From positions 1 through 39,798 of the forward strand of contig JAQGPA010000116.1 in assembly GCA_028293325.1 (NCBI GenBank): 39,798 bases of DNA, given 5' to 3'. The DNA is from Pedosphaera sp. Its GTDB lineage: Bacteria > Verrucomicrobiota > Verrucomicrobiia > Limisphaerales > Pedosphaeraceae. The translations under genes were made by a program, and so were the position numbers. Positions 11,762 through 29,538 of the stretch are shown piece after piece. The notes under the pieces were generated by a model, which saw only the letters and a program-made list of their open reading frames with translations, was not told the DNA's origin and made no database searches. Position 1 is the stretch's first letter. Every line of letters starts with the position of its first letter.

Positions 11762-11955
11762 GTAATTCCCTTTCGCTGCCTGATTTGGAAACGCAAAGTC
11801 CGCCAGCTGCAACCTAACCTTGGCAATTCCCGATGCGCATTGGGGCAAACTACGCCTCCGGCAATGGGCGGCCAACGGGTTTCACCCCATTGCGGCCCCT
11901 CTCCCACCGATGGACGTTTTCTTGGCGACAAGAACAAATTACGAAAAGGAAGTTT

Positions 11956-12561
11956 ATGAAGAAGTTATTTATGCTGTTATCAATCGGCTCCCTGCTGGCT
12001 GGCTGCGCCGGACACAACCAGGGCGGCACGGGATTGGAATACGGCAGCACCACTGAGAGCGCCATGCAGGGGAACCCCGTCACCATCCCGACCCCAACGG
12101 GCAATGCCCGGGTTTCGGACGCGGAGGCCAAATTTATTCGCGAGGCTTTCCAGCATGGGCAGGATGAAATCCAATTGGGCCAGCTCATCGTGCAAAAAGG
12201 CCAAAGTCAGGCCGTGAAGAATTTCGGCCAGCGTCTCATCGATGATCATACCACGATAAACCAGCGGCTTGCCCAAATTGCTGCGCAAAAAGGCGTGACT
12301 CTTCCCACCGGCCTCGATTCAGGCCATCAGAAGAGGGTCGATAAGCTGGCCAACCTGACCGGAGCGGACTTTGATCGCGCCGTCGAGCGCGATGCCGTTC
12401 GCGACCACGAAAAGGATATCCGAATGTACGAACACGCCGACAAGAATCTGCAAGACCCCGACATCAAGGCCTTCACCGAAAGAACAATTCCTGTCCTGCA
12501 GCAACATCTCGACCTCGCCAAACAATTGGAGAGCGCCGGCACAACTACCTTCCCAGGCTGA
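11956..12561 (+). CDS. DUF4142 domain lipoprotein
   Basis: 201 residues. The ATG at 11956 follows AAAGGA. A lipoprotein signal peptide ends in LLAGC (Cys17). The mature part is the DUF4142 four-helix, ferritin-like bundle (AKFIREAFQHGQDEIQLGQL, then VKNFGQRLIDDHTTINQRL). Family members are periplasmic, of unclear function, often stress-induced. An intrinsic terminator lies 70 bases downstream, so the gene is monocistronic. Confidence 0.87.
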   Translation: MKKLFMLLSIGSLLAGCAGHNQGGTGLEYGSTTESAMQGNPVTIPTPTGNARVSDAEAKFIREAFQHGQDEIQLGQLIVQKGQSQAVKNFGQRLIDDHTTINQRLAQIAAQKGVTLPTGLDSGHQKRVDKLANLTGADFDRAVERDAVRDHEKDIRMYEHADKNLQDPDIKAFTERTIPVLQQHLDLAKQLESAGTTTFPG

Positions 12562-14367: not shown

Positions 14368-14441
14368 GCGGTTGTGATTTAACAGCAGAATGTCTCCCCG
14401 CCAAGGAGGACGTCCGGGTGTGACTCCCGGCAACCGCACCA
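14368..14441 (+). tRNA. tRNA-Gly(GCC), non-canonical elbow
   Basis: Acceptor GCGGTTG/CAACCGC, then A-CCA. Anticodon arm CTCC-CCGCCAA-GGAG gives anticodon GCC but with C instead of U at position 33. T arm CCGGG-TGTGACT-CCCGG lacks TTC; the D loop AACAGCA lacks GG. First gene of the array. Confidence 0.8.
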
Positions 14442-14450
14442 TTTTCGAAC

Positions 14451-14524
14451 AGGCCGCGCACCAGCCAGTGCAGCCGAGTCTCCAAAACTCAGCCTGCCTG
14501 GGGCAGCACCAGGGCGGCCTGCCA
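14451..14524 (+). tRNA. tRNA-Trp(CCA), non-canonical elbow
   Basis: Acceptor AGGCCGC/GCGGCCT, discriminator G as usual for bacterial Trp, CCA encoded. Anticodon loop CTCCAAA. T arm CCTGG-GGCAGCA-CCAGG; D loop CAGCCA. D-loop GCC is complementary to T-loop GGC, differing from the common GCA/TGC pairing. Confidence 0.82.
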
Positions 14525-14547
14525 GATCAATAATCAAAAATTCCTTG

Positions 14548-14622
14548 GGGGTCGTGGCAGACAAGCAATGCACTTGCTTTGCAAGCAAGCCAATGTGGGA
14601 GCGTTACCCACCGACTCCACCA
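14548..14622 (+). tRNA. tRNA-Ala(TGC), non-canonical elbow
   Basis: Acceptor GGGGTCG/CGACTCC (one G-T), A-CCA. Anticodon arm CTTGC-TTTGCAA-GCAAG is like an ordinary bacterial tRNA-Ala. T arm GTGGG-AGCGTTA-CCCAC; D loop contains AAGCAA, no GG. No G3-T70 pair in the exact position normally required is evident beyond the G-T at pair 3, which is present. Confidence 0.82.
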
Positions 14623-14630
14623 TAATTTAT

Positions 14631-14703
14631 TGCGGGGAGAATGAGATTCAGGAGAGCCTCATAAACTCTACCTCCGCGGGTGCAACTCCCGCCCCCGCTA
14701 CCA
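14631..14703 (+). tRNA. tRNA-Met(CAT)-like, degenerate D arm
   Basis: GCGGGG/CCCCGC acceptor with a T-T end pair, A-CCA encoded. Anticodon loop CTCATAA gives CAT (Met, or Ile2 if modified). T arm GCGGG-TGCAACT-CCCGC. The D arm (GAAT-GAG-ATTC) is shrunken and has no matching GCA, making this one of the more degraded members. Confidence 0.68.
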
Positions 14704-14709
14704 ATCTCA

Positions 14710-14799
14710 GGGAAGTGATCCGGCTGCCTGACTGTAAATCAGGTGTCATAAAAAAAATCCGGAAGCGACGACCTGGAGCGTTACCAGCGCTTCCCACCA
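14710..14799 (+). tRNA. tRNA-Tyr(GTA) with long variable arm
   Basis: Acceptor GGGAAGT/GCTTCCC, A-CCA. Anticodon arm CCTGA-CTGTAAA-TCAGG. A ~30-base variable region keeps the class II character of bacterial Tyr tRNA. The D arm is reduced to GATCCGGCTG; its GCT is complementary to the AGC of T loop AGCGTTA. Confidence 0.8.
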
Positions 14800-14803
14800 T
14801 TTT

Positions 14804-14878
14804 GGATCCGTAGCTCAATAGCAGAGCGCCCCGTTGTCTGCGGGAGGGTTGAGGGTGCGACTCCCTTCGGGTCCGCCA
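14804..14878 (+). tRNA. tRNA-Asp(GTC), non-canonical elbow
   Basis: Acceptor GGATCCG/CGGGTCC, discriminator G as expected for Asp, CCA encoded. D arm GCTC-AATAGCA-GAGC, anticodon loop TTGTCTG, T arm GAGGG-TGCGACT-CCCTT. D-loop GCA complements T-loop TGC. Confidence 0.83.
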
Positions 14879-14883
14879 TTTTT

Positions 14884-14958
14884 TGCTCGGTGGGATAATA
14901 GTAGTCCGTCCGCCTGTTACGCGGTGCGGTGCTGGTGCGAGTCCAGCCCGAGCAGCCA
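14884..14958 (+). tRNA. tRNA-Asn(GTT), non-canonical elbow
   Basis: Acceptor TGCTCGG/CCGAGCA, discriminator G, CCA. D arm GGA-TAATAGTAG-TCC, anticodon loop CTGTTAC, T arm GCTGG-TGCGAGT-CCAGC. D-loop GTA can pair with T-loop TGC through a G-T. Confidence 0.83.
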
Positions 14959-14977
14959 AATTTAATTCGCGCCACTT

Positions 14978-15052
14978 GCTCGCGTAGCTCAATCATAGAG
15001 CGCGGTTCTTCTAAAGCCGAAGATGAAGGTGTGATTCCTTCCGCGAGTACCA
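14978..15052 (+). tRNA. tRNA-Arg(TCT), non-canonical elbow
   Basis: Acceptor GCTCGCG/CGCGAGT, A-CCA. D arm GCTC-AATCATA-GAGC, anticodon arm CGGTT-CTTCTAA-AGCCG, T arm GAAGG-TGTGATT-CCTTC. D-loop ATA matches T-loop TGT with one wobble. Confidence 0.83.
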
Positions 15053-15059
15053 ATTTTTT

Positions 15060-15135
15060 CAGGGTGTAATGTCAGCAGCAGACGGCCTCGCTTGGAACGA
15101 GGAGGTCGCGAGTGCAACTCTCGCCACCCTGACCA
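15060..15135 (+). tRNA. tRNA-Pro(TGG), non-canonical elbow
   Basis: Acceptor CAGGGTG/CACCCTG, A-CCA. D arm GTC-AGCAGCA-GAC, anticodon arm CCTCG-CTTGGAA-CGAGG, T arm GCGAG-TGCAACT-CTCGC. D-loop GCA complements T-loop TGC. Confidence 0.84.
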
Positions 15136-15140
15136 CTTTC

Positions 15141-15178
15141 CGGTTGGGTGACAGAATCTGCTCCCGCCCCAACCGCCA
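15141..15178 (+). ncRNA. Truncated tRNA remnant (acceptor minihelix)
   Basis: CGGTTGG pairs with CCAACCG directly followed by CCA, but only ~20 bases lie between, so anticodon and T arms are missing. It sits in register between complete tRNAs, spaced like one of them; probably a deletion derivative. Confidence 0.55.
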
Positions 15179-15179
15179 T

Positions 15180-15253
15180 CGTCTCATAGCTCAAAAGCAG
15201 AGCGCCCGGCTGATAACCGGAAGACCGTGGAGCGTTACCACGTGGGACGACCA
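15180..15253 (+). tRNA. tRNA-Ile(GAT), non-canonical elbow
   Basis: Acceptor CGTCTCA/TGGGACG, A-CCA. D arm GCTC-AAAAGCA-GAGC, anticodon arm CCGG-CTGATAA-CCGG, T arm CGTGG-AGCGTTA-CCACG. The AGCGTTA T loop is shared with Ala and Tyr. Confidence 0.84.
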
Positions 15254-15289
15254 TTTTCTCTCCAAACCTCAACCAATGAAAGGCCGCCA

Positions 15290-15478
15290 ATGAAAACACC
15301 GATTCGTTTCCAAAGCCGTTTGCTCCTCCGCCGGAGCTACAAGCCCGCGCGCGTCAATCGCCGCGCCTTGGGCATCACCTTCCGCCCCGCATCACGCTTC
15401 GACGTGTCGATTGCGCCGCGCAAAAATGTTAATCCGTCTCCGCCCGACGACGCCGACTCCACGTCACTGTCGGGCTGA
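15290..15478 (+). CDS. Possible small basic protein, 62 aa, inside the tRNA array
   Basis: ATG with AAAGG about seven bases upstream; 62 codons. The N-terminal 40 residues are strongly basic (many Arg/Lys: RLLLRRSYKPARVNRR), and the end is Asp/Ser-rich. No family recognised; weakly reminiscent of ribosomal or RNA-binding peptides only in charge. It fills the 236-base gap between tRNA-Ile and tRNA-Phe, which otherwise holds no RNA gene that I can fold. Confidence 0.35.
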   Translation: MKTPIRFQSRLLLRRSYKPARVNRRALGITFRPASRFDVSIAPRKNVNPSPPDDADSTSLSG

Positions 15479-15489
15479 ACCGCCACTAT

Positions 15490-15565
15490 CGCTGGGTAGT
15501 GTAGATAGTCTGCACGCCTGTCTGAAGCACAGGAAGTGTCGGCGCAATTCCGACTCCAGCGGCCA
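15490..15565 (+). tRNA. tRNA-Phe(GAA), non-canonical elbow
   Basis: Acceptor CGCTGGG/TCCAGCG, G discriminator, CCA. Anticodon arm CCTGT-CTGAAGC-ACAGG, T arm GTCGG-CGCAATT-CCGAC. The D region is irregular (GTG...CAC with a long loop containing AGTC). Confidence 0.78.
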
Positions 15566-15580
15566 ATCTGTCCATCAACC

Positions 15581-15611
15581 GCGGCGCTCCCACGAGCGCC
15601 GCTCATTTTTT
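15581..15611 (+). terminator. Hairpin terminator or attenuator before rtcB
   Basis: GCGGCGCTC pairs perfectly with GAGCGCCGC across CCAC, followed by TCATTTTTT. It ends seven bases before the rtcB start at 15618, so it either terminates the tRNA transcript or controls expression of rtcB. Confidence 0.82.
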
Positions 15612-15617
15612 CATCAC

Positions 15618-16748
15618 ATGAACACAATAACCGAAACCAACGTCCGCCTCTTCGCCTCCGCCAAAAGCTGGATCGAAGGCGAAGCCGTGCGCCAACTCTA
15701 CGCCACCGCTCAACTCGACGGCATGCGACGCGCCGTCGGCCTCCCCGATCTCCACCCCGGCAAGGGTGCGCCGGTCGGCGCGGCGTTCTTGAGCGAAGGC
15801 CGAATCTACCCGTACCTGATCGGCAGCGACATCGGCTGCGGCATGGGCTTGTGGAAAACCAATCTGCTCCGCCGCAAAGCCAAATTGGATCGCTGGACCT
15901 CGCTCCGCTTCGATCTCGAGCATCCTTGGGAAGGCAATGTCCGCGAATATCTCGCGGCCGCCAGCGTGGATTCAACCGCATTCGATGCCGCGCTCGGCAC
16001 GATTGGCGGCGGCAACCACTTCGCCGAGTTGCAGGCGGTCGAGGAAATTTTTGACGCCAAGGGGTTCAAACAGTTGGGACTGGGGAAAGACCAACTCGTG
16101 GTGCTCGTTCACAGCGGTTCGCGCGGCTTGGGTGATGCCATCCTGCGCGAACATGTGGATGGGCACCACGCGGCCGGTGCGGAAACCGGCACCGCTGCCG
16201 CCGATGAATACCTGCGCCGTCATGATTCCGCCGTCCGTTGGGCTGCGACCAATCGCGCGCTCATCGCGGAACGCTTCGTCTCCGCTCTCGGTGGCGCGGC
16301 TGAACCGGTTTGGGATGGCTGTCACAATGCCATCACCCGCCTGGATAATGCGGGCGAAACACTCTGGCTCCATCGCAAAGGCGCAGTCCCGGCCAATGCC
16401 GGTCCGGTGATCATTCCAGGCACGCGCGGCACCCTGAGTTACCTGGTGTCGCCGCTCGGCGATGGCCACGCCAACCTCTGGTCACTCGCTCACGGTGCCG
16501 GCCGCAAATGGGCTCGCACCGCCAGCCGCGCCCGCATGCGCGAACGTTACCAGTTGTCCGAGTTGGTGCAGACTCCCTTGGGCGGCCGCGTTATCTGTGA
16601 AGAACGCGACCTCCTCTACGAGGAAGCCCCGGCCGCCTACAAAAACATTGAGGCCGTGATCCAGGATCTCGTCGCTGCCGGAATCGCTTCCGTCATCGCC
16701 ACCCTGCGTCCGCTCCTCACTTACAAGACACGCGCCACCCGGCGCTAA
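15618..16748 (+). CDS. RtcB-family RNA ligase, PrfH-associated (RtcB2) type
   Basis: 376 residues, the short form of RtcB usually coupled to release factor H (TIGR03073-like): LFASAKSWIEGEAVRQL near the N terminus and GLPDLHPGKG (41-50). Metal and active-site residues are visible: D71/C74 in DIGCGMG, GGGNHFAE (130-137), H165 in VHSGSRG, and H292 in AHGAGRKW, equivalent to the guanylylated histidine. It should join RNA 2',3'-cyclic phosphate or 3'-phosphate ends to 5'-OH ends in a GTP/Mn-dependent way. The start ATG at 15618 fits the family; the longer frame runs through tRNA-Phe. No prfH gene is visible; instead the gene is embedded between tRNA-Phe and tRNA-Glu. No clear Shine-Dalgarno sequence. 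Confidence 0.9.
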   Translation: MNTITETNVRLFASAKSWIEGEAVRQLYATAQLDGMRRAVGLPDLHPGKGAPVGAAFLSEGRIYPYLIGSDIGCGMGLWKTNLLRRKAKLDRWTSLRFDLEHPWEGNVREYLAAASVDSTAFDAALGTIGGGNHFAELQAVEEIFDAKGFKQLGLGKDQLVVLVHSGSRGLGDAILREHVDGHHAAGAETGTAAADEYLRRHDSAVRWAATNRALIAERFVSALGGAAEPVWDGCHNAITRLDNAGETLWLHRKGAVPANAGPVIIPGTRGTLSYLVSPLGDGHANLWSLAHGAGRKWARTASRARMRERYQLSELVQTPLGGRVICEERDLLYEEAPAAYKNIEAVIQDLVAAGIASVIATLRPLLTYKTRATRR

Positions 16749-16793
16749 CTTAGCATGCCGCCCGGCTTCACCTCCGTGGCGGCAACCCTTTTC

Positions 16794-16871
16794 GTCCGTG
16801 AATGCAAAGCAGCTCGCGCACCCTGCCCTTCAAGCAGACCCTAGCCGGTGCAAGTCCGGCCACGGACACCA
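16794..16871 (+). tRNA. tRNA-Glu(TTC), non-canonical elbow
   Basis: Acceptor GTCCGTG/CACGGAC, A-CCA. Anticodon arm CTGC-CCTTCAA-GCAG with C at position 33. T arm GCCGG-TGCAAGT-CCGGC; D region contains AAGCAG. D-loop GCA complements T-loop TGC. First tRNA after rtcB. Confidence 0.8.
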
Positions 16872-17224
16872 AGCCAAAAACCTCTGCCAAAACACAATTG
16901 CGCCCTAAGCCGATAATTTGCCAACCATTCTTTTCCTTCTCCCCGCGCAAGCGAGGAGAGCGGGAGCGCGGAATTTATTCCGCTTCACCTTAATCATGAC
17001 CGGCGATCAGAAAACTGCATGCCCTGCTTTACCAACCGACGCATTCCACTCCCTTGATGGCCCGTGCGGATGCACTCGGATGGGAGCGGGTACGGGGTGA
17101 GGGGTGCCAAACGCTCGTCCCATTTGTTTAATTATTTGTGTTTTAAATCAAGCCATGGAGTTTGGACCGCCTCAGTGCAATTCCGCACTCCACACTCCGC
17201 ATTCAAAAGGGCTCCATTTCAATT
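16872..17224. other. Intergenic region within the tRNA array
   Basis: No tRNA-like fold or credible gene seen. One hairpin, GCGGAAT-TT-ATTCCGC near 16966-16982, has no T tract. Confidence 0.4.
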
Positions 17225-17299
17225 CAGGATCGTGGTGTAATAGCAGCATCTCTCCCTGTGAAGGAGACGGTCCGGGTGCAAATCCCGGCTTCCTGACCA
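17225..17299 (+). tRNA. tRNA-His(GTG)-like
   Basis: Acceptor only five pairs (CAGGA/TCCTG), A-CCA. Anticodon arm TCTCC-CTGTGAA-GGAGA, T arm CCGGG-TGCAAAT-CCCGG, D loop TAATAGCAG. It lacks the extra G-1 and C73 that identify normal tRNA-His. D-loop GCA complements T-loop TGC. Confidence 0.76.
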
Positions 17300-17349
17300 A
17301 TCTTAGTCCATTCGATGGGCCGCCAGTTGCAGGTTATCTCACTGCCAAT

Positions 17350-17438
17350 GAAACAGAACGAGGCTGTAGCTCAAGCGCGACAGAGCAGCCGGACGAAAGT
17401 CCGGAAGTCGCAGGTTTGAGGCCTGCCTTCCTGTTTCG
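17350..17438 (+). ncRNA. tRNA-like RNA with GNRA loop in place of the anticodon
   Basis: Acceptor GAAACAG/CTGTTTC, D arm GCTC...GAGC, T arm GCAGG-TTTGAGG-CCTGC. The anticodon arm is CCGGAC-GAAA-GTCCGG, a perfect GNRA tetraloop hairpin, so no codon can be read. About ten extra bases (AACGAGGCT) separate acceptor and D arm. No standard CCA directly after the acceptor (GACTCCA follows). Confidence 0.65.
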
Positions 17439-17486
17439 ACTCCACAGCAATTCTTGTCCATCGAGTCTTTAGACGGGCCGTTGAGT

Positions 17487-17560
17487 TTGGCTTATCGTAA
17501 GCGGGCAACCGCAAGCGGGTGCAATTCCCGCGAAACCGGGCAACCGGTTGATGTCCCAGT
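17487..17560 (+). ncRNA. Second anticodon-less tRNA-like RNA
   Basis: A row of four hairpins: GCTTA-TCG-TAAGC (D-arm position), GCGG-GCAA-CCGC (anticodon position, GNRA loop), GCGGG-TGCAATT-CCCGC (T arm with the array's typical loop) and ACCGG-GCAA-CCGGT. The acceptor stem is poorly defined, so ends are approximate. Confidence 0.45.
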
Positions 17561-17622
17561 TCGTCCCTTTTCCGTCGGTTTTTCAGCGGGCCGTAGATTG
17601 TGGATCATCGGAACTTGCTCAG

Positions 17623-17698
17623 TGGCGATGGAAATCTGTCCTCTGCTCGTGAAGAGTAGCCCAGAAGAAAGAGGTGGCAGTAAACATCCACCATCGCT
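17623..17698 (+). ncRNA. Third tRNA-like structured RNA
   Basis: GGCGAT pairs with ATCGCT at the ends; inside are GGA...TCC, CTGCTC-GTGAA-GAGTAG and GGTGG...CCACC, laid out like D, anticodon and T arms. The middle loop GTGAA is GNRA-like rather than an anticodon loop. No CCA. Could also be an unrelated structured RNA. Confidence 0.35.
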
Positions 17699-17768
17699 CT
17701 TTGTCTGCCATGGAGAAACCGGGCTTTTGATTCATCTTTCGATCACCGCATTTTGCGCCGCGTTTTGT

Positions 17769-20700
17769 TTAATGCACGCCGATGCGATAGAAAGACGGCC
17801 CACCACTGCTGGCCGTGGCGTCGGAGTAAGTTTGCAACCCTCCAACTCCGGGAATGTTTGTGGCGATTATTTGGAACGGCGATACCGCCCCGAGATTGGT
17901 CGCCCGTTCAACCCAATAGCTTCGTGTGGCGACGCTTTGCCACGTCACGCTTGCGCTCGCGGCGCTGGTGGTGACACTTACGATGCGAAACGCCGACAGT
18001 GCGTTGGTTGGAACCGTATCCGCACGCCACTCGCTGTAGTTGTTCACGCCATCGCCGTCCGAGTCCGCGGATGCCCCAGAAGCCGTAGTCGGCAGTCCAA
18101 AGCCCTGCATCCATGAAAAATATCCGAGTAACGCCGGGGTCTGACATTCGTAAGCACCCATGTCCACTGTGGCGGCAACGATGCGCGGATCGCCATCCAA
18201 GTCGGCACCCGCTGGCGCGTAAACATTCGTGCCGGCATTGATACAAGGAGAATTGGTTTGCAACTGAAAGTTGCCACCAGACTGATCCACAAAGAGTGGA
18301 GCGTTGGTAATATTGCCCGCGCCGATGCCAGGCAAGGACGTCGAGCAGCAATAGTTTAGGGCTCCGCCGAACCAGTCCGGGGAGTCCGGCGAAACCACGA
18401 CGGTATTGGAAACGACTATCGAATTCCACACCGTGCAGGAATCAACTCCGCCACCCCGATAGTATGCCAAATTTCCAGCCACGGTGCAGTTGGCGAGCGT
18501 AGTACCCACACCGCTGGGATTGGCCGCCGCTCCGCCGCCCACCGAGCCTGTCGCGGAATTGCCCGTGAGCAGGCAATTATACAAGAATCCGCCGGTGGCA
18601 CCTCCGCCTTGATACCCGGAGCTGTTTTGTCGCAGCACGCAATTCGTGCCGATGCTGTTGTAACATCCTCCGCCCATCGCTGCCGAATTGCTGAGCATCA
18701 GGCAGCCGACCAAGGTGGACGCGGCCGCGCCACCACCGCTGTTTCCCGCGGTGTTGGCGACCAGAGTGCAGTTTCTCAGCGTGCTGTTGTTGGCTCCGCC
18801 ACCGTCCTTTCCCGAATTTCCTATCACCGCGCAGCTTATCAGTGTGCTGTCAACGGCCCCGCCCCCCGATGCCGGATGAGAGTTCGGGGTGTCTGTAATA
18901 TTGGATACGAGCGTGCAACTCACCAGCGTGCAACTGCTGGCTCCGCCGCCACTGACAGGCCCGTAGCCAACAATCGCCGTATTATTTGACAACAGGCAGC
19001 CGCTTATCATGCTCAAATAGGCGGCACCGCCGGAGCCAGTGGCGGAGTTGGCGATGAGCGAGCAGTTGCTCAAGGATGCGCCACGAATGCCACCGCCAAA
19101 AACATTGGCCCTATTGCTTATAAGCAAGCAGCTCGAAACAACAGCGTTGGTGGATTCGCACCAGGCGCCGCCACCGGATTGTTCCTTGTAGCCATCTCCG
19201 GCGGCCCGTGTGGCACCGTTCAGCAGGGTAAACCCGCTCAGCGTTGCCCCATTGGTCAGGTATACGCAACGCACCGCGCTGTCACCAATGATCGGGTTGC
19301 CCTGGATGACCGTCGTCGCAGGGCCGTTCACGCTCTGGACGACAACGGGTTTGTTGATGACCACCCGATTGGTCAGCGCACCGTACACGACTCGCCCGCC
19401 CGATTGGTAGGTTCCATTCGTAACTAGAATATGCGCGCCGTACACCACCGCATCCACCGCATCCTGAATGTTGGTCGCCGCCGTTTGCCACGAGTCGAAA
19501 GGCGGCACCGGATTAGACGAACCGGGATCCACATAAGAAAGCGGAGGAGGTATGACATGAATCACGTAGACACCGCTCACACCGCCGGGGTTGCTGCTGT
19601 CGAAGATCGTCAACGTCACCGGGTAATCGCCGGGTGCTGTCCAGGAGTGTGTTACAAACACCTGATTGGTGACCACCGTCCCGTCCCCAAAATCCCATGA
19701 ATCGGTTCTGCCCCGCGAAAACATTCCCTTGAAGCTTGCGGTGATGCCAACGACGACGGTGGTGTAGTCGCACTGGATGCTGACGGTGGCCGGGTTGGGC
19801 TGTTGATATTCATAAGCGCCCATGTCCGCAGTGCCATTGGCAATGCGCAGGTTGCCGTCCAAATCGGTGAGACTGCCCACGTAACCGTTGGTGCCGGCAT
19901 CTATCCCGCCAGAGCCAGCCTGGAGATGAAAGTCGCCGCCCGCCTGATTTACAAAAATCGGCGCGGTTGTGATGTTCCCCACCCCGCCGGCATCCGGCGT
20001 GCAGCAATAGCTGTACGTGCAGCCGTAAGTGTTCGGGCCGGTCGGGCCGGAGTTATAATAAATGATGCAGTTATACAGTGTGGCGCTGTAAGCTCCCCCG
20101 CCGTAACTCGCGGAATTGCCCACCAACGTGCAGTTGATCAAGGTCGTGGTCCAGTACACTCCTCCGCCGTAACCACCACTGCCGCTATTATTTCGCAGCA
20201 CGCAGTTTACCAGGGTGCCGCCGCTCACGCCCCCGCCGCCATAGCCCGCCTGATTGGCGACAATGGTGCAGTTTGTTAGGGTGGAATTGTACGCACCGCC
20301 AGCGTTTTGATCCGCCCGGTTATTGGAAAGCGTGCAATTGATGAGCGTGGAGGCGTTCGCACCGCCACCCGATGAACCGGCGCCGAGGACTTTGTTGCCT
20401 GACAGTGTGCAATTCGTGAGGACCGAGCCGGACACGCCACCGCCCACGGTTGCGCCCGAGCCATTGCAGACATTATTATTGATCGTGCAATTCGCCAGGA
20501 AGCCACCCACTGCCCCCGCACCGCTGCCGCCGTTGACCAAAGTCGAGTTGCCGGTGATCGTGCAGTTGAGAAGTGTCGAATTATACGCTCCGCCGCCGCT
20601 GCCCGCGAACACAACCGAGTTGCTGGAAACGGTGCAATTGCTCAACGTTCCCGAATAAACGCCGCCGCCGAATTTTCCCGAGTTGACGCTAACTTTGCAG

Positions 20701-21140
20701 TTGAACAGTTGGGCATTGGTCGATGTGCAATACGCCCCGCCGCCATTCACTGCTGTGCCGTTGGTCAGGGTAAATCCAGACAACACCGCACCATTAGTCA
20801 AATAAACGCACCTCATGGTCTTGGCTCCGTCGATCACAGTCGCCGCCGAACCATTGACGCTCTCAATGCTGACAGGCTTGGTCGCAGCCACTCGATTGGT
20901 CGTGCCATCGGCGGCAAGACCACTGCCGGACTGATAAACACCGTTCGTGACGAGAATCTGATCGCCGGGAACGGCGACATCAATCGCGTCCTGAATATTC
21001 GTCGCAGCCGTGGCCCAAGTGTTGTAAGGAACAGAAGGATTGGCGTTGTTGACACTCACGTAATAGACCGCGGCTGAAGACGTGATGGATTGGAAGGCGA
21101 AGAGGAGAATCGCTGACAAAGTCGTGTGACAAGGTTTCAT
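17769..21140 (-). CDS. Giant secreted beta-helix/PKD protein
   Basis: 1123 residues with an N-terminal signal peptide (about 1-24). Two long right-handed parallel beta-helix domains made of short GGGA-x-x-STL-NCT-type repeats occupy ~25-445 and ~532-1000. Each ends in a 'choice-of-anchor Q' motif: DLDGNLRIANGTADMGAYEY and DLDGDPRIVAATVDMGAYEC. A PKD domain (DSWDFGDGT, THSWTAPGDYPVTLTI) lies between (~448-530). Near 1027 is a calcium-binding thrombospondin-3-like DSDGDGVNNYSEW, followed by a beta-sandwich. Typical Verrucomicrobia surface or polysaccharide-binding protein. It is transcribed against the tRNA array and splits it into two parts. Confidence 0.87.
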   Translation of the reverse strand: MKPCHTTLSAILLFAFQSITSSAAVYYVSVNNANPSVPYNTWATAATNIQDAIDVAVPGDQILVTNGVYQSGSGLAADGTTNRVAATKPVSIESVNGSAATVIDGAKTMRCVYLTNGAVLSGFTLTNGTAVNGGGAYCTSTNAQLFNCKVSVNSGKFGGGVYSGTLSNCTVSSNSVVFAGSGGGAYNSTLLNCTITGNSTLVNGGSGAGAVGGFLANCTINNNVCNGSGATVGGGVSGSVLTNCTLSGNKVLGAGSSGGGANASTLINCTLSNNRADQNAGGAYNSTLTNCTIVANQAGYGGGGVSGGTLVNCVLRNNSGSGGYGGGVYWTTTLINCTLVGNSASYGGGAYSATLYNCIIYYNSGPTGPNTYGCTYSYCCTPDAGGVGNITTAPIFVNQAGGDFHLQAGSGGIDAGTNGYVGSLTDLDGNLRIANGTADMGAYEYQQPNPATVSIQCDYTTVVVGITASFKGMFSRGRTDSWDFGDGTVVTNQVFVTHSWTAPGDYPVTLTIFDSSNPGGVSGVYVIHVIPPPLSYVDPGSSNPVPPFDSWQTAATNIQDAVDAVVYGAHILVTNGTYQSGGRVVYGALTNRVVINKPVVVQSVNGPATTVIQGNPIIGDSAVRCVYLTNGATLSGFTLLNGATRAAGDGYKEQSGGGAWCESTNAVVSSCLLISNRANVFGGGIRGASLSNCSLIANSATGSGGAAYLSMISGCLLSNNTAIVGYGPVSGGGASSCTLVSCTLVSNITDTPNSHPASGGGAVDSTLISCAVIGNSGKDGGGANNSTLRNCTLVANTAGNSGGGAAASTLVGCLMLSNSAAMGGGCYNSIGTNCVLRQNSSGYQGGGATGGFLYNCLLTGNSATGSVGGGAAANPSGVGTTLANCTVAGNLAYYRGGGVDSCTVWNSIVVSNTVVVSPDSPDWFGGALNYCCSTSLPGIGAGNITNAPLFVDQSGGNFQLQTNSPCINAGTNVYAPAGADLDGDPRIVAATVDMGAYECQTPALLGYFSWMQGFGLPTTASGASADSDGDGVNNYSEWRADTVPTNALSAFRIVSVTTSAASASVTWQSVATRSYWVERATNLGAVSPFQIIATNIPGVGGLQTYSDATASSGGPSFYRIGVH

Positions 21141-21471
21141 GTGCTTCCTTTAGGGTGACGCTTTTTTACCATATCTTTTTTGACATTCAAGCGCGAAAAG
21201 CGGTTTGGAACGTGCAAGCTCACAACCCCGCAATTTTTCCGTGCAACTCCGGACGCAGGTTTCAAGAACTGTTGCCTGCGCTCAGGACGCTTTGACGGCG
21301 CGCTCCGGAACCACTTTTTTCCGCGAATAGTCGCGCGAAGCGCATTGGCCGTGCGCAAGCACTTTCTGCGGGCCGAATAACCTGGATTATCTATGAAACG
21401 ACCCCAGGCTAATTAACTTGCCCGCAGTTCAAACAACACAATCATTGCCGAAAGTTGACGGCACACTACTT
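21141..21471. other. Intergenic region between beta-helix gene and second tRNA cluster
   Basis: Should carry the promoter of the beta-helix gene. Small fold GTGC-GCAA-GCAC near 21352 and a T-arm-like TCCG-TGCAACTC-CGGA near 21238-21253 may be remnants of array tRNAs. No credible gene. Confidence 0.35.
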
Positions 21472-21483
21472 AAGGAGGTCACT

Positions 21484-21543
21484 ATGACCATTAATTATCC
21501 AAAGCTTTTCAACCGACGTAATCGCGGACTTTGTCCGCGGTGA
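21484..21543 (+). CDS. Leader-peptide-like micro-ORF (19 aa)
   Basis: The best Shine-Dalgarno in the region, AAGGAGG at 21472-21478, stands five bases before ATG. The peptide is MTINYPKLFNRRNRGLCPR. Its last codons lie in an inverted repeat (CGCGGAC-TTT-GTCCGCG inside TAATC...GATTA, about 21519-21546). A strong ribosome-binding site plus a terminal hairpin is the layout of a regulatory leader; it lies 57 bases before the second tRNA cluster. Too short for statistical support. Confidence 0.45.
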   Translation: MTINYPKLFNRRNRGLCPR

Positions 21544-21554
21544 TTAATCAACGC

Positions 21555-21576
21555 GGGCGGAAGTGTAAACTTCCGC
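21555..21576 (+). other. Perfect inverted repeat before second tRNA cluster
   Basis: GGCGGAAGT pairs with ACTTCCGCC across GTAA. No T tract follows, so it may be a processing or antitermination element rather than a terminator. Confidence 0.55.
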
Positions 21577-21599
21577 CGGCACCTTTCATGTATCCCGTT

Positions 21600-21651
21600 G
21601 GCCGAGCAGCCCATCCGCCCAACGGGAGTGCAAGTCTCTCCATCGGCTCCA
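21600..21651 (+). ncRNA. Truncated tRNA-like remnant
   Basis: GGCCGA pairs with TCGGCT directly before CCA. The T arm GAG-TGCAAGT-CTC has the array-type loop, but only ~50 bases remain and no proper anticodon arm is found. An alternative strong pairing is CCCGTTGG/CCAACGGG. Confidence 0.45.
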
Positions 21652-21655
21652 TTTT

Positions 21656-21731
21656 GCTCCCGTAGCTCAACCTATAGAGCGCCGCACTTCGAATGCGGAG
21701 GTTGCAGCCGAAATTCCTGCCGGGAGCACCA
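21656..21731 (+). tRNA. tRNA-Arg(TCG), altered T arm
   Basis: Acceptor GCTCCCG/CGGGAGC, A-CCA. D arm GCTC-AACCTATA-GAGC, anticodon arm CCGCA-CTTCGAA-TGCGG. T arm GCAG(C)-CGAAATT-(C)CTGC with one mismatch. No clear D/T triplet complementarity. Confidence 0.8.
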
Positions 21732-21737
21732 ATTCAT

Positions 21738-21814
21738 GCCGCGTTAGCCCAACTACCAGAGGCGCTCCGCTTAGAACGGAGAGGTTGAGGGTGGAAATCC
21801 CTCACGCGGCACCA
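21738..21814 (+). tRNA. tRNA-Leu(TAG) with short variable loop
   Basis: Acceptor GCCGCGT/ACGCGGC, A-CCA. Anticodon arm CTCCG-CTTAGAA-CGGAG. Variable loop only ~5 bases, against the long arm of normal bacterial Leu tRNAs. T arm GAGGG-TGGAAAT-CCCTC. D-loop CCA complements T-loop TGG, a compensated version of the usual GCA/TGC. Confidence 0.8.
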
Positions 21815-21819
21815 TTTCA

Positions 21820-21904
21820 CGGCGACTGGCTTTAGCGGGAATAGCAGACCCCGGCGACTTAAAATCGCCGAGCCTTCCGGGTGCGAGTCCCGGGTCGCCG
21901 ACCG
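21820..21904 (+). tRNA. tRNA-Leu(TAA), CCA not encoded
   Basis: Acceptor CGGCGAC/GTCGCCG, discriminator A, then CCG because the next tRNA begins at 21903. Anticodon arm GGCGA-CTTAAAA-TCGCC. Variable region ~7 bases. T arm CCGGG-TGCGAGT-CCCGG; D loop contains AATAGCAG. D-loop GCA complements TGC. Confidence 0.8.
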
Positions 21905-21986
21905 GCGTGTGGTTAATCGGGAACAGCAGACCGGTTCGACTCAAGATCGAACAGCCTTGGGAGTGCAAGTCTCCCCACGCCGACCA
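21903..21986 (+). tRNA. tRNA-Leu(CAA)
   Basis: Acceptor CGGCGTG/CACGCCG, A-CCA. Anticodon arm GTTCGA-CTCAAGA-TCGAAC, short variable region, T arm GGGAG-TGCAAGT-CTCCC. D loop contains AACAGCAG; GCA complements TGC. Starts one base after the body of the preceding tRNA. Confidence 0.82.
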
Positions 21987-22054
21987 ATAATCCCATGAAG
22001 GCTGGCCGCCATTAAAGTGATGCAACGAATCCTTAATCCGCGTCCCGGACGGGA

Positions 22055-22885
22055 CTACCCGGACCTTTTTTTCAAGAGCCGCGATGCAACCACCAGCAGG
22101 ATCAAGCCCCCGATGGCAACGGTGGCGTAAAGCGCACGCGTTTGTCTCGGGATTTTGCGGATGCTTTCAAATGACTGGCCTGGGATGATTTCCTCGGTTT
22201 GGCTCTCGGCCTTGGCCGGTTGAGCGGCCTCCATTGCGGGTGGCGCTTGCAGCCGGTCAATCTCCCCTTCGCACCGGCCAATGATGCGGTAGAGCCGGTT
22301 GATTTCGATCATTTGTGCCTCCGTGAGTTTCGCTTTTGGAAGCGTCCGGTTGGTGTAGAAATATTTGGTCATGGCATTGAATTCCAAATCCTGGCCGAGG
22401 AACACAATGCCCGGATTAAGGTCCGAAGTGACAAATTTATCCCCGGCGTAAGGGAACTCCTGGCTCTGGCGGACGTCAACGGTGTTGAAATCCGGCTTGC
22501 TGGCACCCGGGTGAAACCAGCCGGATTGGGACGTCGAGACAGATATATTGCCGCTCCGGACATAGGCCTTGACTGGCCGGTTCACGATTAGGAGCACGCG
22601 CTGCAAGGCGTTAGTCATCTCCAAATTGACCGCGGCCAACTGTTCCTTCGGAGTTGCAGCCGCAACTGAATTGGTCGAATCGGCCACGGCGGCGTTTTGC
22701 TGGGCATAAAGGTTTGATCCAATATCAAGCCTCGCCAGCATGAACACCGCCAGGAAGCCGCACAGCGGAAACAGACGCCACACGGCTTTGGCCGTTCGAT
22801 TATTTTCATTATCCGTGAGAGTCCTCCGGCCCGGAAGCACGTCGCATTCGCAGCGTATCAAGCGCATATGGCCGCATACTTCCAA
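22055..22885 (-). CDS. Hypothetical membrane-associated protein
   Basis: 276 residues from the first ATG; ATG at 22867 is an alternative. A hydrophobic segment near residues 38-54 (LFPLCGFLAVFMLA) followed by QQN suggests a signal anchor, and a second span lies near the C terminus (LYATVAIGGLILLVVASRLL) before KKRSG. The middle region (about 85-200) is soluble, with KLTEAQMIEINRLYRIIGRCEGEIDRL as a probable helix. No family recognised. Located on the opposite strand between two tRNA clusters. Confidence 0.62.
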   Translation of the reverse strand: MEVCGHMRLIRCECDVLPGRRTLTDNENNRTAKAVWRLFPLCGFLAVFMLARLDIGSNLYAQQNAAVADSTNSVAAATPKEQLAAVNLEMTNALQRVLLIVNRPVKAYVRSGNISVSTSQSGWFHPGASKPDFNTVDVRQSQEFPYAGDKFVTSDLNPGIVFLGQDLEFNAMTKYFYTNRTLPKAKLTEAQMIEINRLYRIIGRCEGEIDRLQAPPAMEAAQPAKAESQTEEIIPGQSFESIRKIPRQTRALYATVAIGGLILLVVASRLLKKRSG

Positions 22886-23022
22886 GCTTCCGCTGAAAGG
22901 TCAACCTTGCTCGAGGAAGAGTGGGGCTCGTCCGGGCCAATCGCAGAAGCAGCACCTCCGGGCGTCACGACTGCTGCCGACCAATTTGGAATGTCAATCG
23001 GCCAAGCGCCGCCGACTGCACT

Positions 23023-23430
23023 TCACTTAATCGGAGGCTTACGCGAACCGAAAAGCTTGGCCGCGACCGCGTGGGTCAGCACTACATCAGGGTCGCGCTG
23101 CAACGCCTCGAAATAATGGCGTGAAAATCCTTCACCTTCTTCCGTGGCAACCAGCAGTTGGCTGGCTTGTTTGATCAAGGCGTCCGCGTCTGCATCCGTC
23201 TTCGGCTCCTTGGCTTCCAACGTTTCATCCATCGCCACGATGAGCTGGGAGAGCGGTTGCAACCAGGCAAACCACGGATCAGTTGTCAGGAGTTGCAGGA
23301 AATGACTCGGCGATGGGATGGTGCCAACGGTTTTTTCGTAACTCACGCGCTCCGAATCCACCAATGCTTTGTGCAGATTCAAAAGCGCGTTTCGCAGATC
23401 CTGCAATCGTTGGCGGATGTCGTTTGTCAC
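23023..23430 (-). CDS. Conserved hypothetical protein, 135 aa
   Basis: A mostly helical protein beginning MTNDIRQRLQDLRNALLNLH, with an invariant-looking DPWFAWLQPLSQLIV segment in the middle. I recall similar short proteins in several phyla but no assigned function. No signal peptide. Opposite in orientation to the tRNA genes on both sides. Confidence 0.68.
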   Translation of the reverse strand: MTNDIRQRLQDLRNALLNLHKALVDSERVSYEKTVGTIPSPSHFLQLLTTDPWFAWLQPLSQLIVAMDETLEAKEPKTDADADALIKQASQLLVATEEGEGFSRHYFEALQRDPDVVLTHAVAAKLFGSRKPPIK

Positions 23431-23508
23431 TCAGCCATTAACGTGGCCTGCCTTTTCGTTTGAGTCAATATTCAACCGGAGTTGGTACCAACCCGCGCGG
23501 CAATTTTA

Positions 23509-23587
23509 ACGCCCCTGAACGCGAAGTAGCTCGAGCGACCTCATGCATGGAGGAATTAAGCCGGTGGAAGAGACCGGCCAGGGGCGT
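23509..23587 (+). ncRNA. Cys(GCA)-like tRNA with inserted bases, no CCA
   Basis: Long acceptor ACGCCCCTG/CAGGGGCGT (9 bp) followed by TTTCCTTTT. Anticodon arm CCTC-ATGCATG-GAGG would read GCA, but position 37 is T. T arm CCGGT-GGAAGAG-ACCGG. Extra AACGCGAA between acceptor and D region matches the layout of the anticodon-less RNA at 17350, so it may be a structural RNA or terminator rather than a tRNA. Confidence 0.5.
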
Positions 23588-23605
23588 TTCCTTTTATCAA
23601 CATTC

Positions 23606-23682
23606 GCTCGCGTAGCCCAACCAGTAGAGGCACGACGTTGAGAACGTCGCCAGTGCAGGTGCAACTCCTGCCGTGAGCACCA
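23606..23682 (+). tRNA. tRNA-Leu(GAG) with short variable loop
   Basis: Acceptor GCTCGCG/CGTGAGC, A-CCA. Anticodon arm CGACG-TTGAGAA-CGTCG, variable loop ~5 bases, T arm GCAGG-TGCAACT-CCTGC, D loop contains CCAGTAG. D-loop GTA pairs with TGC through a wobble. Confidence 0.82.
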
Positions 23683-23688
23683 ATTCAA

Positions 23689-23766
23689 GGAGCTGAAGCC
23701 ACAGCAGACCGGCACCCGACTTTTAATCGGACCACGGTGAGGTTGCAACTACCTCCAGCTCCACCA
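23689..23766 (+). tRNA. tRNA-Lys(TTT), non-canonical elbow
   Basis: Acceptor GGAGCTG/CAGCTCC, A-CCA. Anticodon arm CCGA-CTTTTAA-TCGG, T arm GAGGT-TGCAACT-ACCTC, D loop contains ACAGCAG. GCA complements TGC. Confidence 0.82.
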
Positions 23767-23771
23767 ATTTT

Positions 23772-23845
23772 TGCCTGGTCGGCTAATAGTAGGCCCGCGT
23801 CCTTTGAAGACGCTCGTGATGGTGCGACTCCATCCCCGGCAACCA
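23772..23845 (+). tRNA. tRNA-Gln(TTG), non-canonical elbow
   Basis: Acceptor TGCCTGG/CCCGGCA with one mismatch, A-CCA. D arm GGC-TAATAGTAG-GCC, anticodon arm GCGTC-CTTTGAA-GACGC, T arm GATGG-TGCGACT-CCATC. D-loop GTA pairs with TGC through a wobble. Confidence 0.82.
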
Positions 23846-23854
23846 TTCCTTATT

Positions 23855-23928
23855 CGCCCGGTGGTGAAATAGCATCGCGTCCGGCCTACACCCGGAAGTC
23901 GAGGGGGCAGAACCTTCCCGGGCGACCA
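23855..23928 (+). tRNA. tRNA-Val(TAC), C33 and altered T loop
   Basis: Acceptor CGCCCGG/CCGGGCG, A-CCA. Anticodon arm TCCGG-CCTACAC-CCGGA with C at position 33. T arm GAGGG-GGCAGAA-CCTTC; D region contains AAATAGCATC. Confidence 0.8.
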
Positions 23929-23929
23929 T

Positions 23930-24004
23930 TGCCTCGTTGCATAACCAGCAGTGCGCCGGTCTCTGACACCGGAAGTCCTGGAGCAAAGCCAGGCGAGGCA
24001 GCCA
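23930..24004 (+). tRNA. tRNA-Gln(CTG), last array member
   Basis: Acceptor TGCCTCG/CGAGGCA, discriminator G, CCA. D arm GCA-TAACCAGCAG-TGC, anticodon arm CCGGT-CTCTGAC-ACCGG, T arm CCTGG-AGCAAAG-CCAGG. Confidence 0.82.
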
Positions 24005-25936: not shown

Positions 25937-25964
25937 ACGGCCATGCGCAGAGCGCCATGGCCGT
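25937..25964 (+). promoter_or_regulatory. Hairpin just upstream of the HNH gene
   Basis: ACGGCCAT-GCGC pairs with GCGC-ATGGCCGT (one bulged C) across AGA, a 12-bp stem ending eleven bases before the ATG at 25975. It covers the alternative ATG at 25957 and may limit translation or be a protein-binding site. Confidence 0.55.
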
Positions 25965-25974
25965 GTGCAAACAT

Positions 25975-26559
25975 ATGAACGACATACTGAACAAAGCGAC
26001 CGTCCTGGTCCTGAATCGTAATTGGCAGGCGATCAACATCCGCACGCCGGCGGACGCCTTTTGCCAGATGGCCACCAGCGTGGCGACCGCGCTGGAAATC
26101 GCGGGCGAAGATCACATCCGTCCTGTGCCCTGGGCGGAATGGGTGGGCCTGCCGATTCGTGCCCAGGACCAGTCTGTGCGTACCGTGCGCGGCGAGATCC
26201 GCGTGCCGACGGTCATCGTGCTCGTCAACTTCGCCAAGGTGCCGAAGAAGCGCCCGAAGCTCTGCGCGCGCACCATTCGCGAGCGCGACGGCAACCGTTG
26301 CCAATACACCGGTGCCACGCTGCGCCCGGAGGAAGGCAACATCGATCACGTATTGCCGCGTTCGCGCGGTGGCCGGGACTCTTGGGAAAACTGCGTTTGG
26401 TCCAGCAAGTCGGTCAACTCAAAGAAAGGCAACCGCCTGCCGCACGAAGCGGGATTGAAGCTGCTCAAGCAGCCCAAGGCCATTCCCGAGTTGCCCGTCA
26501 CGGCCTTGATCCGCAACCCGCACGGGATCGCGGACTGGAAATGGTTCGTCAACGAATAA
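25975..26559 (+). CDS. HNH endonuclease family protein
   Basis: 194 residues. The HNH core runs from RERDGNRCQYTG (103-113) through NIDHVLPRSRGGRDSWENCVWSSKSVNSKKGN (122-153): the IDH and N139 match the catalytic His/Asn pattern, although the zinc Cys pairs are incomplete. The N-terminal ~95 residues (VLVLNRNWQAINIRTPADAF) belong to the same family of stand-alone HNH proteins that I associate with phage-defence and RNA-repair neighbourhoods. I chose 25975 because the upstream ATG is buried in a hairpin. Upstream of a structured RNA and slipin on the same strand. Target (DNA or RNA) unknown. Confidence 0.84.
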   Translation: MNDILNKATVLVLNRNWQAINIRTPADAFCQMATSVATALEIAGEDHIRPVPWAEWVGLPIRAQDQSVRTVRGEIRVPTVIVLVNFAKVPKKRPKLCARTIRERDGNRCQYTGATLRPEEGNIDHVLPRSRGGRDSWENCVWSSKSVNSKKGNRLPHEAGLKLLKQPKAIPELPVTALIRNPHGIADWKWFVNE

Positions 26560-26879: not shown

Positions 26880-27665
26880 ATGAAAATTGAAATCTTAATG
26901 GCCCTCAGCATTACAGCGCTGTTGGTCGCAATGGTGGTGGCGTCGCGCCGGAAGACTTTTATTGTATCGGAAGGATTCTGCGGACTCCTTTACCTCAACG
27001 GAAAATCGTTGCATCGCATCAGTCCGGGCAAACACCACTTCTGGAAGTCCGGCTATCAAGTGCAGATGGTGGATATGCGCCAGACGCTCTTGACCGTTGC
27101 CGGCCAGGAGGTGTTGAGCCAGGACAATGTCGGCCTGAAGGTCAGTGCGGTGCTGACCTACCAGATCGTCCAGGCGGAAAAGGCGACGCATGAAGTGCAG
27201 AATTACTTCACGCACCTGCACAACGCCGTGCAAATGGCCTTGCGCACCGTGGTTGGCGCGCTGCCGATTGAGACGTTGTTAAGCGAACGCCTCAACATCG
27301 GCAAACAGTTGTTCGCCCTCGTGCAGCCGGAAGCCGATCGCATCGGCATTGTCATTCACGCCTTGGAGGTAAAGGACGTGATGTTTTCCGGCGAACTGAA
27401 GAAAGTCTTCGCCGAAGTAATCAAGGCGCAGAAGGAAGGCCAGGCCGCGTTGGAACGCGCGCGCGGTGAAACCGCAGCCTTGCGCAATCTGGTCAATGCC
27501 GCTCGAATGCTGGAAGGCAATCCGGCTTTGATGAACCTGCGCTTGTTGCAAAGCATCGCCTCCGCCGGCAACGGCTCGGGCAACACGCTCGTGATGGGCA
27601 TGCCGGCGGGCTTCATGCCCGTCAAGAACGGCAAGCCTGAAAACGGTTCGCACACCGAAACATGA
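26880..27665 (+). CDS. Slipin (SPFH/band 7) family protein
   Basis: 261 residues. One N-terminal hydrophobic segment (about 4-21) then an SPFH domain: SEGFCGLLYLNGKSLHRISPG, VGLKVSAVLTYQIV, LRTVVGALPIETLLSERLNIG, and the Ala/Glu-rich helix EVIKAQKEGQAALERARGET. Membrane-anchored oligomeric scaffold; slipins are recurrent partners in RtcR-controlled RNA-repair clusters. It follows the HNH gene and structured RNA on the same strand and ends convergent to rtcR. Confidence 0.87.
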   Translation: MKIEILMALSITALLVAMVVASRRKTFIVSEGFCGLLYLNGKSLHRISPGKHHFWKSGYQVQMVDMRQTLLTVAGQEVLSQDNVGLKVSAVLTYQIVQAEKATHEVQNYFTHLHNAVQMALRTVVGALPIETLLSERLNIGKQLFALVQPEADRIGIVIHALEVKDVMFSGELKKVFAEVIKAQKEGQAALERARGETAALRNLVNAARMLEGNPALMNLRLLQSIASAGNGSGNTLVMGMPAGFMPVKNGKPENGSHTET

Positions 27666-29470: not shown

Positions 29471-29522
29471 TTTGCCCGTCTTTATTGGGGTTTATGCGAA
29501 TCGTGACCGCGCGCTTTTTGGT

Positions 29523-29538
29523 TGGCACGGCGGCTGCA
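29523..29538 (+). promoter_or_regulatory. Sigma-54 promoter of the Ro60 unit
   Basis: TGGCACGGCGGCTGCA matches the TGGCAC-N5-TTGCA consensus with GG (-24) and GC (-12) separated by exactly ten bases. It lies 36 bases before the Ro60 ATG and next to the gene for a sigma-54 activator. Confidence 0.85.

Follow-up and report, generated by a model that had tools for sequence, protein, structure and literature searches.

A second set of tRNA genes with a uniformly altered elbow beside RNA-repair genes in Verrucomicrobia

A stretch of 39,798 nucleotides from Pedosphaera sp. (contig JAQGPA010000116.1, analysed at its full length and called the window below) carries an array of tRNA genes whose elbow, the D-loop and T-loop positions 18, 19, 54-56 and 58, departs from the canonical form. 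It belongs to a 5.5 Mb genome in 218 contigs, assembled to 93.8% completeness, with Pedosphaera and other genomes of Verrucomicrobia subdivision 3 as its closest named relatives. The + strand carries 22 intact array tRNAs for 17 amino acids between positions 14368 and 24004, with no anticodon present twice; 21 of the 22 encode CCA and all 22 have G at position 55. An earlier note, made from the sequence alone, had described about 23 tRNAs with non-canonical loops, nearly all with encoded CCA, reading 17 amino acids without duplication plus a Cys-like member. The array, its loops, its CCA ends and its coverage were borne out, with the count revised to 22 intact genes, the others being remnants; the Cys-like member is not intact and is perhaps an eroded copy at 17366..17440. 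The array surrounds an RtcB gene and adjoins an RtcR/Ro60 locus, as that note had proposed, and profile matches agree on both, with four YrlA RNAs in addition.

From its left end the array runs Gly-GCC (14368..14441; D loop AACAGCA, T loop TGTGACT), Trp-CCA (14451..14524; T loop GGCAGCA), Ala-TGC (14548..14622, with G3-U70), Met-CAT (14631..14703, with a U1/U72 mismatch), Tyr-GTA (14710..14799, without a D arm), Asp-GTC (14804..14878), Asn-GTT (14884..14958), Arg-TCT (14978..15052), Pro-TGG (15060..15135), Ile-GAT (15180..15253) and Phe-GAA (15490..15565), and continues beyond RtcB with Glu-TTC (16794..16871) and His-GTG (17225..17299). Farther right come Arg-TCG (21656..21731), Leu-TAG (21738..21814; C19 with G56), Leu-TAA (21820..21903), which ends in ACC without a complete CCA and overlaps the next tRNA by one base, and Leu-CAA (21903..21986), followed by Leu-GAG (23606..23682), Lys-TTT (23689..23766), Gln-TTG (23772..23845), Val-TAC (23855..23928) and Gln-CTG (23930..24004). 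The Tyr gene is of a type that recurs in relatives: in the window and eight relatives (alignment A3), a helix search found TCCGG/CCGGA pairing with the variable region in place of the D arm, with pairing kept through a change to TCCAG/CTGGA and 44 of 45 cells paired.

These genes are only partly visible to standard tools. ARAGORN recovered 11 of the window tRNAs and Rfam RF00005 recovered 13 at E<=1 (38-58 bits); outside the window RF00005 gave 46 genome matches, 37 of them at 60 bits or more. A covariance model (R1) built from 74 array tRNAs recovered 20 window members, each on the + strand and at E<1e-4, with scores such as 26.4 bits for Trp-CCA; five of these (Gly-GCC, at 67.6 bits, Arg-TCT, Arg-TCG, Gln-TTG and Val-TAC) were in the model and match it by construction. 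Tyr-GTA and Leu-TAA were identified by reading the sequence by eye. We rejected R1 as a classifier of array and ordinary tRNAs because canonical tRNAs also score 27-67 bits with it, and used the T-loop letters instead.

The altered loops are confined to the array. Apart from the array, 44 distinct tRNAs were parsed from the same genome, and these are canonical, with D-loop GG, C56 and encoded CCA in all 44, U55 in 43 and G55 in none; a further weak match outside the array, a Glu tRNA with GTTCGATTCC, is canonical by pattern. The array isotypes are thus redundant with a scattered housekeeping set, in which we found no ordinary Ile-GAT in this 93.8% complete assembly. A second array-bearing genome consists of one chromosome of 5,957,605 bases, which we take to be that of Opitutus terrae PB90-1; 44 of its 64 tRNA matches lie outside the array, and the best 30 of these 44 (two chance scanner matches excluded) include none with G55 and 29 with D-loop GG. 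The earlier note had named loops shared with the ordinary tRNAs as an outcome that would overturn its claim, and they are shared by 0 of 44 tRNAs here and 0 of 30 in the apparent O. terrae genome. Both genomes thus have canonical ordinary tRNAs and, in the array, a second set whose loops do not reflect a general habit of the genome. We also considered and rejected recent copying from the host: among the 44 parsed host tRNAs, which lack Ile and Glu, the best match to an array tRNA is of the same isotype in only 59 of 165 cases (chance 6%), which indicates that the array tRNAs are old and diverged.

We searched for related arrays with a T-arm pattern (GGTGCRANTCC, 11 bases, CCA), taking the reversed pattern as a control. 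Among 320 genomes of the order, our own included, 51 had the pattern at least five times, and the reversed pattern never occurred more than three times in any of the 320. A sample of 387 genomes from the phylum extended this to other orders of the class: seven genomes of the same class had at least five matches and other classes had at most two; the reversed control reached six in one genome, G534, which had four forward matches and no array at the stretch fetched. Stretches fetched from five of the seven same-class genomes all contained array tRNAs, the apparent O. terrae chromosome being one of the five (the other two of the seven, G536 and G553, lie outside the set of loci used below). That set comprises 35 stretches and 17 named loci, with six duplicates. 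A scanner that demands CCA and paired stems and allows only U or C at position 33 found 637 array tRNAs, 622 of them distinct, across 41 loci including the window; 35 of these loci hold at least five. The array is thus kept in other Verrucomicrobia, where the earlier note had suggested looking for it.

Most fetched arrays are smaller than the largest, or cut. Loci L109 and L111 have 36 tRNAs each by the scanner, in about 3.6 kb and near-identical order, covering all 20 amino acids; one of these two arrays is apparently from O. terrae. L109 has a further Arg-TCT without CCA, and with simple wobble and four-box superwobble its set would read 60 of the 61 sense codons (58 with the scanner set, plus AGA and AGG from Arg-TCT), CUA being unread. 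In two more large arrays, L083 (38 tRNAs) and L065 (36), the scanner found every amino acid but Tyr, and in L083 a D-armless Tyr at the usual place brings the count to 39. One genome, G031, carries two separate arrays, L065 and L074 (32 tRNAs).

The contacts between G18 and pseudouridine 55 and between G19 and C56 are among the most conserved in biology. In the 41 loci, 626 of 637 array tRNAs (611 of 622 distinct) have G at position 55 and eight have U; six of those eight, with GG and TTC loops of the canonical kind, are probably ordinary tRNAs in the same stretch, although we kept them in all counts. D-loop GG occurs in 54 of 637, and the set as a whole lacks the canonical G18-U55 elbow. For the second contact we assigned position 19 by a rule that reads only the D loop and seeks a base preceded by A. 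The base so assigned follows position 56: it is G in 354 of 425 members with C56, C or U in 25 of 26 with G56, U (15) or C (10) in the 28 with A56, and A or G in nine of ten with U56. Standard 19-56 pairs number 403 of 489, compared to 325.8 ± 4.9 in shuffled data, and 49 of 64 among members without C56, compared to 14.7 ± 2.6. In held-out loci, fetched after the rule was made, 13 of 24 non-C56 members form standard pairs (4.2 ± 1.3 shuffled, with a maximum of 10 in 5000 shuffles), and 7 of 10 when Arg is set aside (3.2 shuffled). An A precedes position 19 in 439 of 489 distinct members, a figure that is circular as a measure of A18. The reverse-Hoogsteen contact between 54 and 58 is also kept, as U-A, A-U, G-G or C-A in 597 of 622 members (385.9 ± 7.1 shuffled), the four pair types having been named after the counts were seen.

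The description of the elbow as uniformly altered stands as to G55, which is present in nearly every member, and is modified in one respect: the elbow is not simply degenerate, the 18-55 contact being changed and the 19-56 contact kept by covariation. The simplest reading is that G18/pseudouridine 55 became A18/G55 with 19-56 retained, where A18 and its touch with G55 would be the predicted part. We tried and dropped an antiparallel two-pair kiss (19-56 plus 20-55), as inspection of the D loops showed a variable base (C, U or A) after position 19 and usually an A before it. The T arms that TruB accepts carry GUUYRANYC (PMC7912444), which predicts that array T arms should not receive pseudouridine 55.

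Outside the elbow the array tRNAs appear to keep what a working tRNA would need. They have paired acceptor, anticodon and T stems and a 3' CCA, which was present in 226 of 229 tRNAs from eight loci scanned without the CCA rule. Over 23 pairs (21 in stems and two loop contacts), 94.5% of cells pair, compared to 55.3% in shuffled data, a level partly set by the scanner, which demands paired stems; compensatory changes on both sides, which are not so set, number 631 cells compared to 184.5 shuffled. The charging signals we compared are those of the tRNA identity literature. Ala has G3-U70 in 20 of 20 members (one of 617 in other isotypes), Pro has C1-G72 with A73 in 34 of 35 and Gln has U1-A72 in 23 of 29; the discriminator is A in 56 of 56 Leu, U in 21 of 21 Cys and G in 25 of 25 Trp, and mixed in the Glu, Phe, Gly, His and Arg sets. 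Of 35 Met-CAT genes, 15 have U1 opposite U72, a mismatch that recalls initiator tRNA. Judged by these patterns of sequence change, the array is a set of selected tRNAs with a rebuilt elbow and not a product of decay.

The window copy itself is partly eroded. No intact Ser, Thr or Cys gene was found in the window array, in agreement with the Ser and Thr gaps noted earlier. Comparison with tRNAs of relatives, with five shuffles each, placed remnants in the gaps, all on the + strand: a Thr-TGT at 21540..21651 whose last 30 bases equal the Thr-TGT of locus L062 (score 38.2, compared to 20.0 shuffled), a Glu-TTC at 23514..23582 (33.6 and 22.2), a copy nearest Ile-GAT at 17366..17440 (28.6 and 22.0), a Lys-TTT at 22004..22048 (26.2 and 18.0) and, weakly, a possible Ser-CGA with an internal deletion at 15142..15175, the first 16 bases of which equal the Ser-CGA of L062 (20, compared to 16.8 for the best of the shuffles). 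These remnants explain the missing Thr and perhaps Ser, and the Ser, Thr and Cys gaps look like local loss.

The RtcB gene within the array (15618..16748, + strand; PF01139, 9.5e-74) is an RNA ligase of the TIGR03073 type (438 bits, cut-off 272). RtcB proteins of this type are usually paired with PrfH; in this genome PrfH (TIGR03072) gave three matches, all below the cut-off (best 122.4 bits, compared to 166.65). Relatives of the array RtcB, 58-80% identical, occur within the order, in 13 of 96 other genomes searched, with a fragment in a 14th, and none was found in the viral contigs searched. Fifteen of the 17 named loci encode such a relative at 62-81% identity, some cut by contig ends, and the other two have one near 30%.

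To the right of the array lie an HNH endonuclease gene (25957..26559, + strand; PF13395), a slipin/Band 7 gene (26880..27665, + strand; PF01145) and, on the - strand, a regulator RtcR (27781..29388; PF06956, 2e-78, with a sigma-54 AAA domain). Opposite to it, on the + strand, a sigma-54-like promoter with one mismatch (29522..29538) precedes Ro60 (29574..31127, with TROVE and vWA domains by Pfam), four YrlA Y RNAs (31446-31548, 31562-31696, 31703-31836 and 31871-31986; scores from 39 to 85.6 bits, of which one exceeds the gathering score of 69) and a second RtcB (32633..34144; PF01139, 4.3e-98). The window thus has the RtcR and the sigma-54 promoter before repair genes that mark an RtcR regulon. 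A scan of the window for sigma-54 sites gave 18 matches where 19 were expected, and only the Ro60 site, the sole one with fewer than three mismatches, stands out. RtcA was not found among the 20 window open reading frames (ORFs) scanned with Pfam. Two other genes of the window were noted: one on the - strand at 24049-25806 encodes a SWIM/DUF6880 protein that matches, at 199 bits, PDC-S62, a defence candidate of PADLOC, and another, also on the - strand at 17769-21140, encodes a 1123-residue right-handed beta-helix/PKD protein within the array stretch, opposite to the tRNAs.

Among 35 array loci, many of them truncated at contig ends, the commonest neighbours are the RtcB family (30 loci, counted as one single-linkage cluster of several types), HNH (17), Ro60 (13) and slipin (10). 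L065 was excluded from this count by the ORF filter and has an RtcB relative by a separate search. A FliA/WhiG-like sigma factor, a LysR gene and RtcB recur together in six loci of the O. terrae group, five of which also have HNH. In L109 the sigma factor (11464-12186, + strand) lies just 3' of the array and HNH and is a candidate regulator. The GOLLD RNA (RF02032) occurs in 4 of 51 pattern-rich genomes, compared to 1 of 269 others (two of the five over the family cut-off), and adjoins array tRNAs in four of the five cases (L068:2479-2917, - strand, and L146-L148). An array tRNA-Cys stands beside GOLLD in three of those four.

Related HNH genes led to arrays in other bacteria and phages. Of 16 stretches fetched around relatives of the window HNH, nine hold nine or more tRNAs and seven are without an array; such relatives adjoin arrays on plasmids of Nostoc, Tolypothrix, Calothrix, Mycobacterium, Mycolicibacterium, Paenarthrobacter and Variovorax and in the phages S-CBWM1 and S-CRM01. 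G55 is found in 8 of 177 tRNAs of nine plasmid or phage arrays, seven of the eight in cyanobacterial plasmids, where three arrays have UC at 55-56 in 40 of 47 tRNAs. Those three arrays (L129, L142 and L143, on Nostoc, Tolypothrix and Calothrix plasmids) all have G55 in Glu-CTC and Ile-GAT, and L129 also in Met.

We give even credence to the reading that the array is a stress-switched reserve, a second tRNA set that keeps translation going when ordinary tRNAs are cut or lost. Ordinary tRNAs would be cut or lost under stress and the array switched on; the changed elbow would hide array tRNAs from a tRNA-cutting nuclease, or from TruB-type modification and quality control, and RtcB and Ro60 would meanwhile repair or clear the damaged ordinary tRNAs. 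Toxins that cut tRNAs in the T loop exist. More tentatively, and with our confidence falling a little below the even point, the array may form a parallel translation apparatus in which every isotype took A18/G55 in a concerted escape from an elbow-reading enzyme, with RNA-repair proteins beside it.

Several points weigh against such a role. That array RNAs would be expressed, charged and used is a prediction, and the elbow-reading enzyme they would escape is hypothetical. In the window scan no sigma-54-like site with fewer than three mismatches lies 5' of the array itself, so that RtcR control of the tRNAs would be conjectural, and the window copy is partly eroded, as described above. The array core is looser than that of the host set, with U33 in 84%, U8 in 67% and A14 in 75% of 637 members. 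Plasmid and phage arrays mostly have U55, which implies that arrays can in general function without the altered elbow. As to the 19-56 contact, the rule was made after the first set of loci had been seen and cannot measure the frequency of A18; 15 of the 64 non-C56 members, and 11 of the 24 held-out ones (eight of the 11 with C opposite A), have no standard pair; and in a fixed MAFFT column the pairing is weak (66.2%, compared to 60.6% shuffled), because D loops differ in length, while two slid versions covaried more.

The strongest of the alternatives, though we consider it unlikely, is that the array is anti-defence cargo derived from a mobile element or phage and now resident, with tRNAs that resist host tRNA-cutting defences, a homing-type HNH nuclease and sometimes GOLLD. 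The plasmid and phage arrays beside relatives of the window HNH and the enrichment of GOLLD next to array tRNAs both fit this origin, as does the proposal that phage tRNAs evade nucleases by anticodon-loop changes (PMC10264068). It accords poorly with the 7 of 16 HNH stretches that have no array, with the lack of array-RtcB relatives in the viral contigs searched and with the low frequency of G55 in plasmid and phage arrays, and the LysR gene, sigma factor and RtcB shared by the six O. terrae-group loci, five also with HNH, fit a resident locus.

Relaxed drift is a less probable account, in which silent spare tRNAs lost the elbow constraint, like mitochondrial tRNAs, with no selection for escape. 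The looser core positions would be expected from it, and mitochondrial type II tRNAs and tRNA-Pyl are known without G18, G19 and TPsiC (PMC7609411). Drift would not, however, yield G55 in 98% of members and in all isotypes with 19-56 and 54-58 covarying. We regard as very improbable that the array RNAs are decoys or signals and not adaptors, tRNA-like RNAs soaking up a nuclease or feeding RtcR: Ro60 and RtcR do adjoin the array, and the tRNA-like domain of YrlA has been suggested as a competitor for anticodon nucleases (PMC7790460), but decoys would have no need for all 20 amino acids, isotype-specific charging signals or CCA. Decayed pseudogenes, suggested by the window remnants and named by the earlier note, for relatives, as an outcome that would refute it, are hardly credible and already contradicted for the family, in which stems carry compensatory changes, relatives have arrays of 36-38 genes, and stems, anticodons and charging signals are kept, with a covarying elbow, across 41 loci.

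Whichever role the array plays, dozens of genomes carry a natural tRNA set, complete for all 20 amino acids, that has changed its 18-55 contact and let 19-56 covary. As one array genome is apparently that of a cultured strain, the elbow needs of translation become directly testable, as does the question of whether the elbow is the target of tRNA-destroying toxins or defences. If the reading as a parallel translation apparatus is true, bacterial conflicts would have the elbow among their targets, and a single rule there could mark self from spare.

Arrays of tRNA genes and their links to HNH, RtcB and slipin genes are already known, the HNH link having been reported in print (PMC5966550, PMC12803027). 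The earlier note had held that arrays on phages and integrative elements were known and a uniform elbow change was not, and within the scope of our search the literature matches agree: among the matches listed, in a search with the subscription literature mostly outside it, neither a Verrucomicrobial array nor such a change is described in any title or abstract opening, and a term search of the available text of a review of non-canonical tRNAs (PMC7609411) returned no Verrucomicrobia, clusters or RtcB. In contrast to the mitochondrial type II tRNAs and tRNA-Pyl of that review, which are single isotypes or belong to organelles, a whole bacterial set is here altered one way, with 19-56 kept by covariation. 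The phage tRNAs proposed to evade nucleases differ in the site of change, which is the anticodon loop there and would be the elbow here (PMC10264068).

In gene number the closest units are those of Mycobacterium plasmids and phages, with at least 20 clustered tRNAs, often with HNH, and a proposed anti-defence role (PMC5966550, PMC12803027). By the count of at least 20 clustered tRNAs (PMC5966550), the window, with 22 intact genes in 9.6 kb, and L109, with 36 by scanner in 3.6 kb, are array units as well. Unlike the window array, the two Mycobacterium plasmid stretches we examined are canonical (UC at 55-56 in 53 of 53 tRNAs), with no RtcB or Ro60 annotated there.

Two systems resemble the locus in its parts. 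The trn operon of Anabaena sp. PCC 7120 encodes 26 tRNAs on the delta plasmid, is silent and is induced by translational stress, and deletion of its repressor TrcR also raises RtcB, slipin and an HNH gene (PMC10272220). Like the window array, it is a large second tRNA set beside a full housekeeping set, with RtcB, slipin and HNH associated; unlike the window locus, it has the TrcR repressor and, in the available text, no RtcR. The rsr-yrl-rtcB operon of Salmonella, controlled by RtcR, responds to damaged tRNAs (PMC7790460). The available text of that paper lacks the terms tRNA genes and tRNA cluster, unlike the window with its array, and the window has the counterparts of the operon in its RtcR, sigma-54-like site, Ro60, Y RNAs and RtcB. 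The Verrucomicrobial locus joins parts of the Anabaena trn operon and the Salmonella RtcR repair operon, and brings silent tRNA arrays, known until now separately from RNA repair by RtcR and Ro60, together with such repair at one locus.

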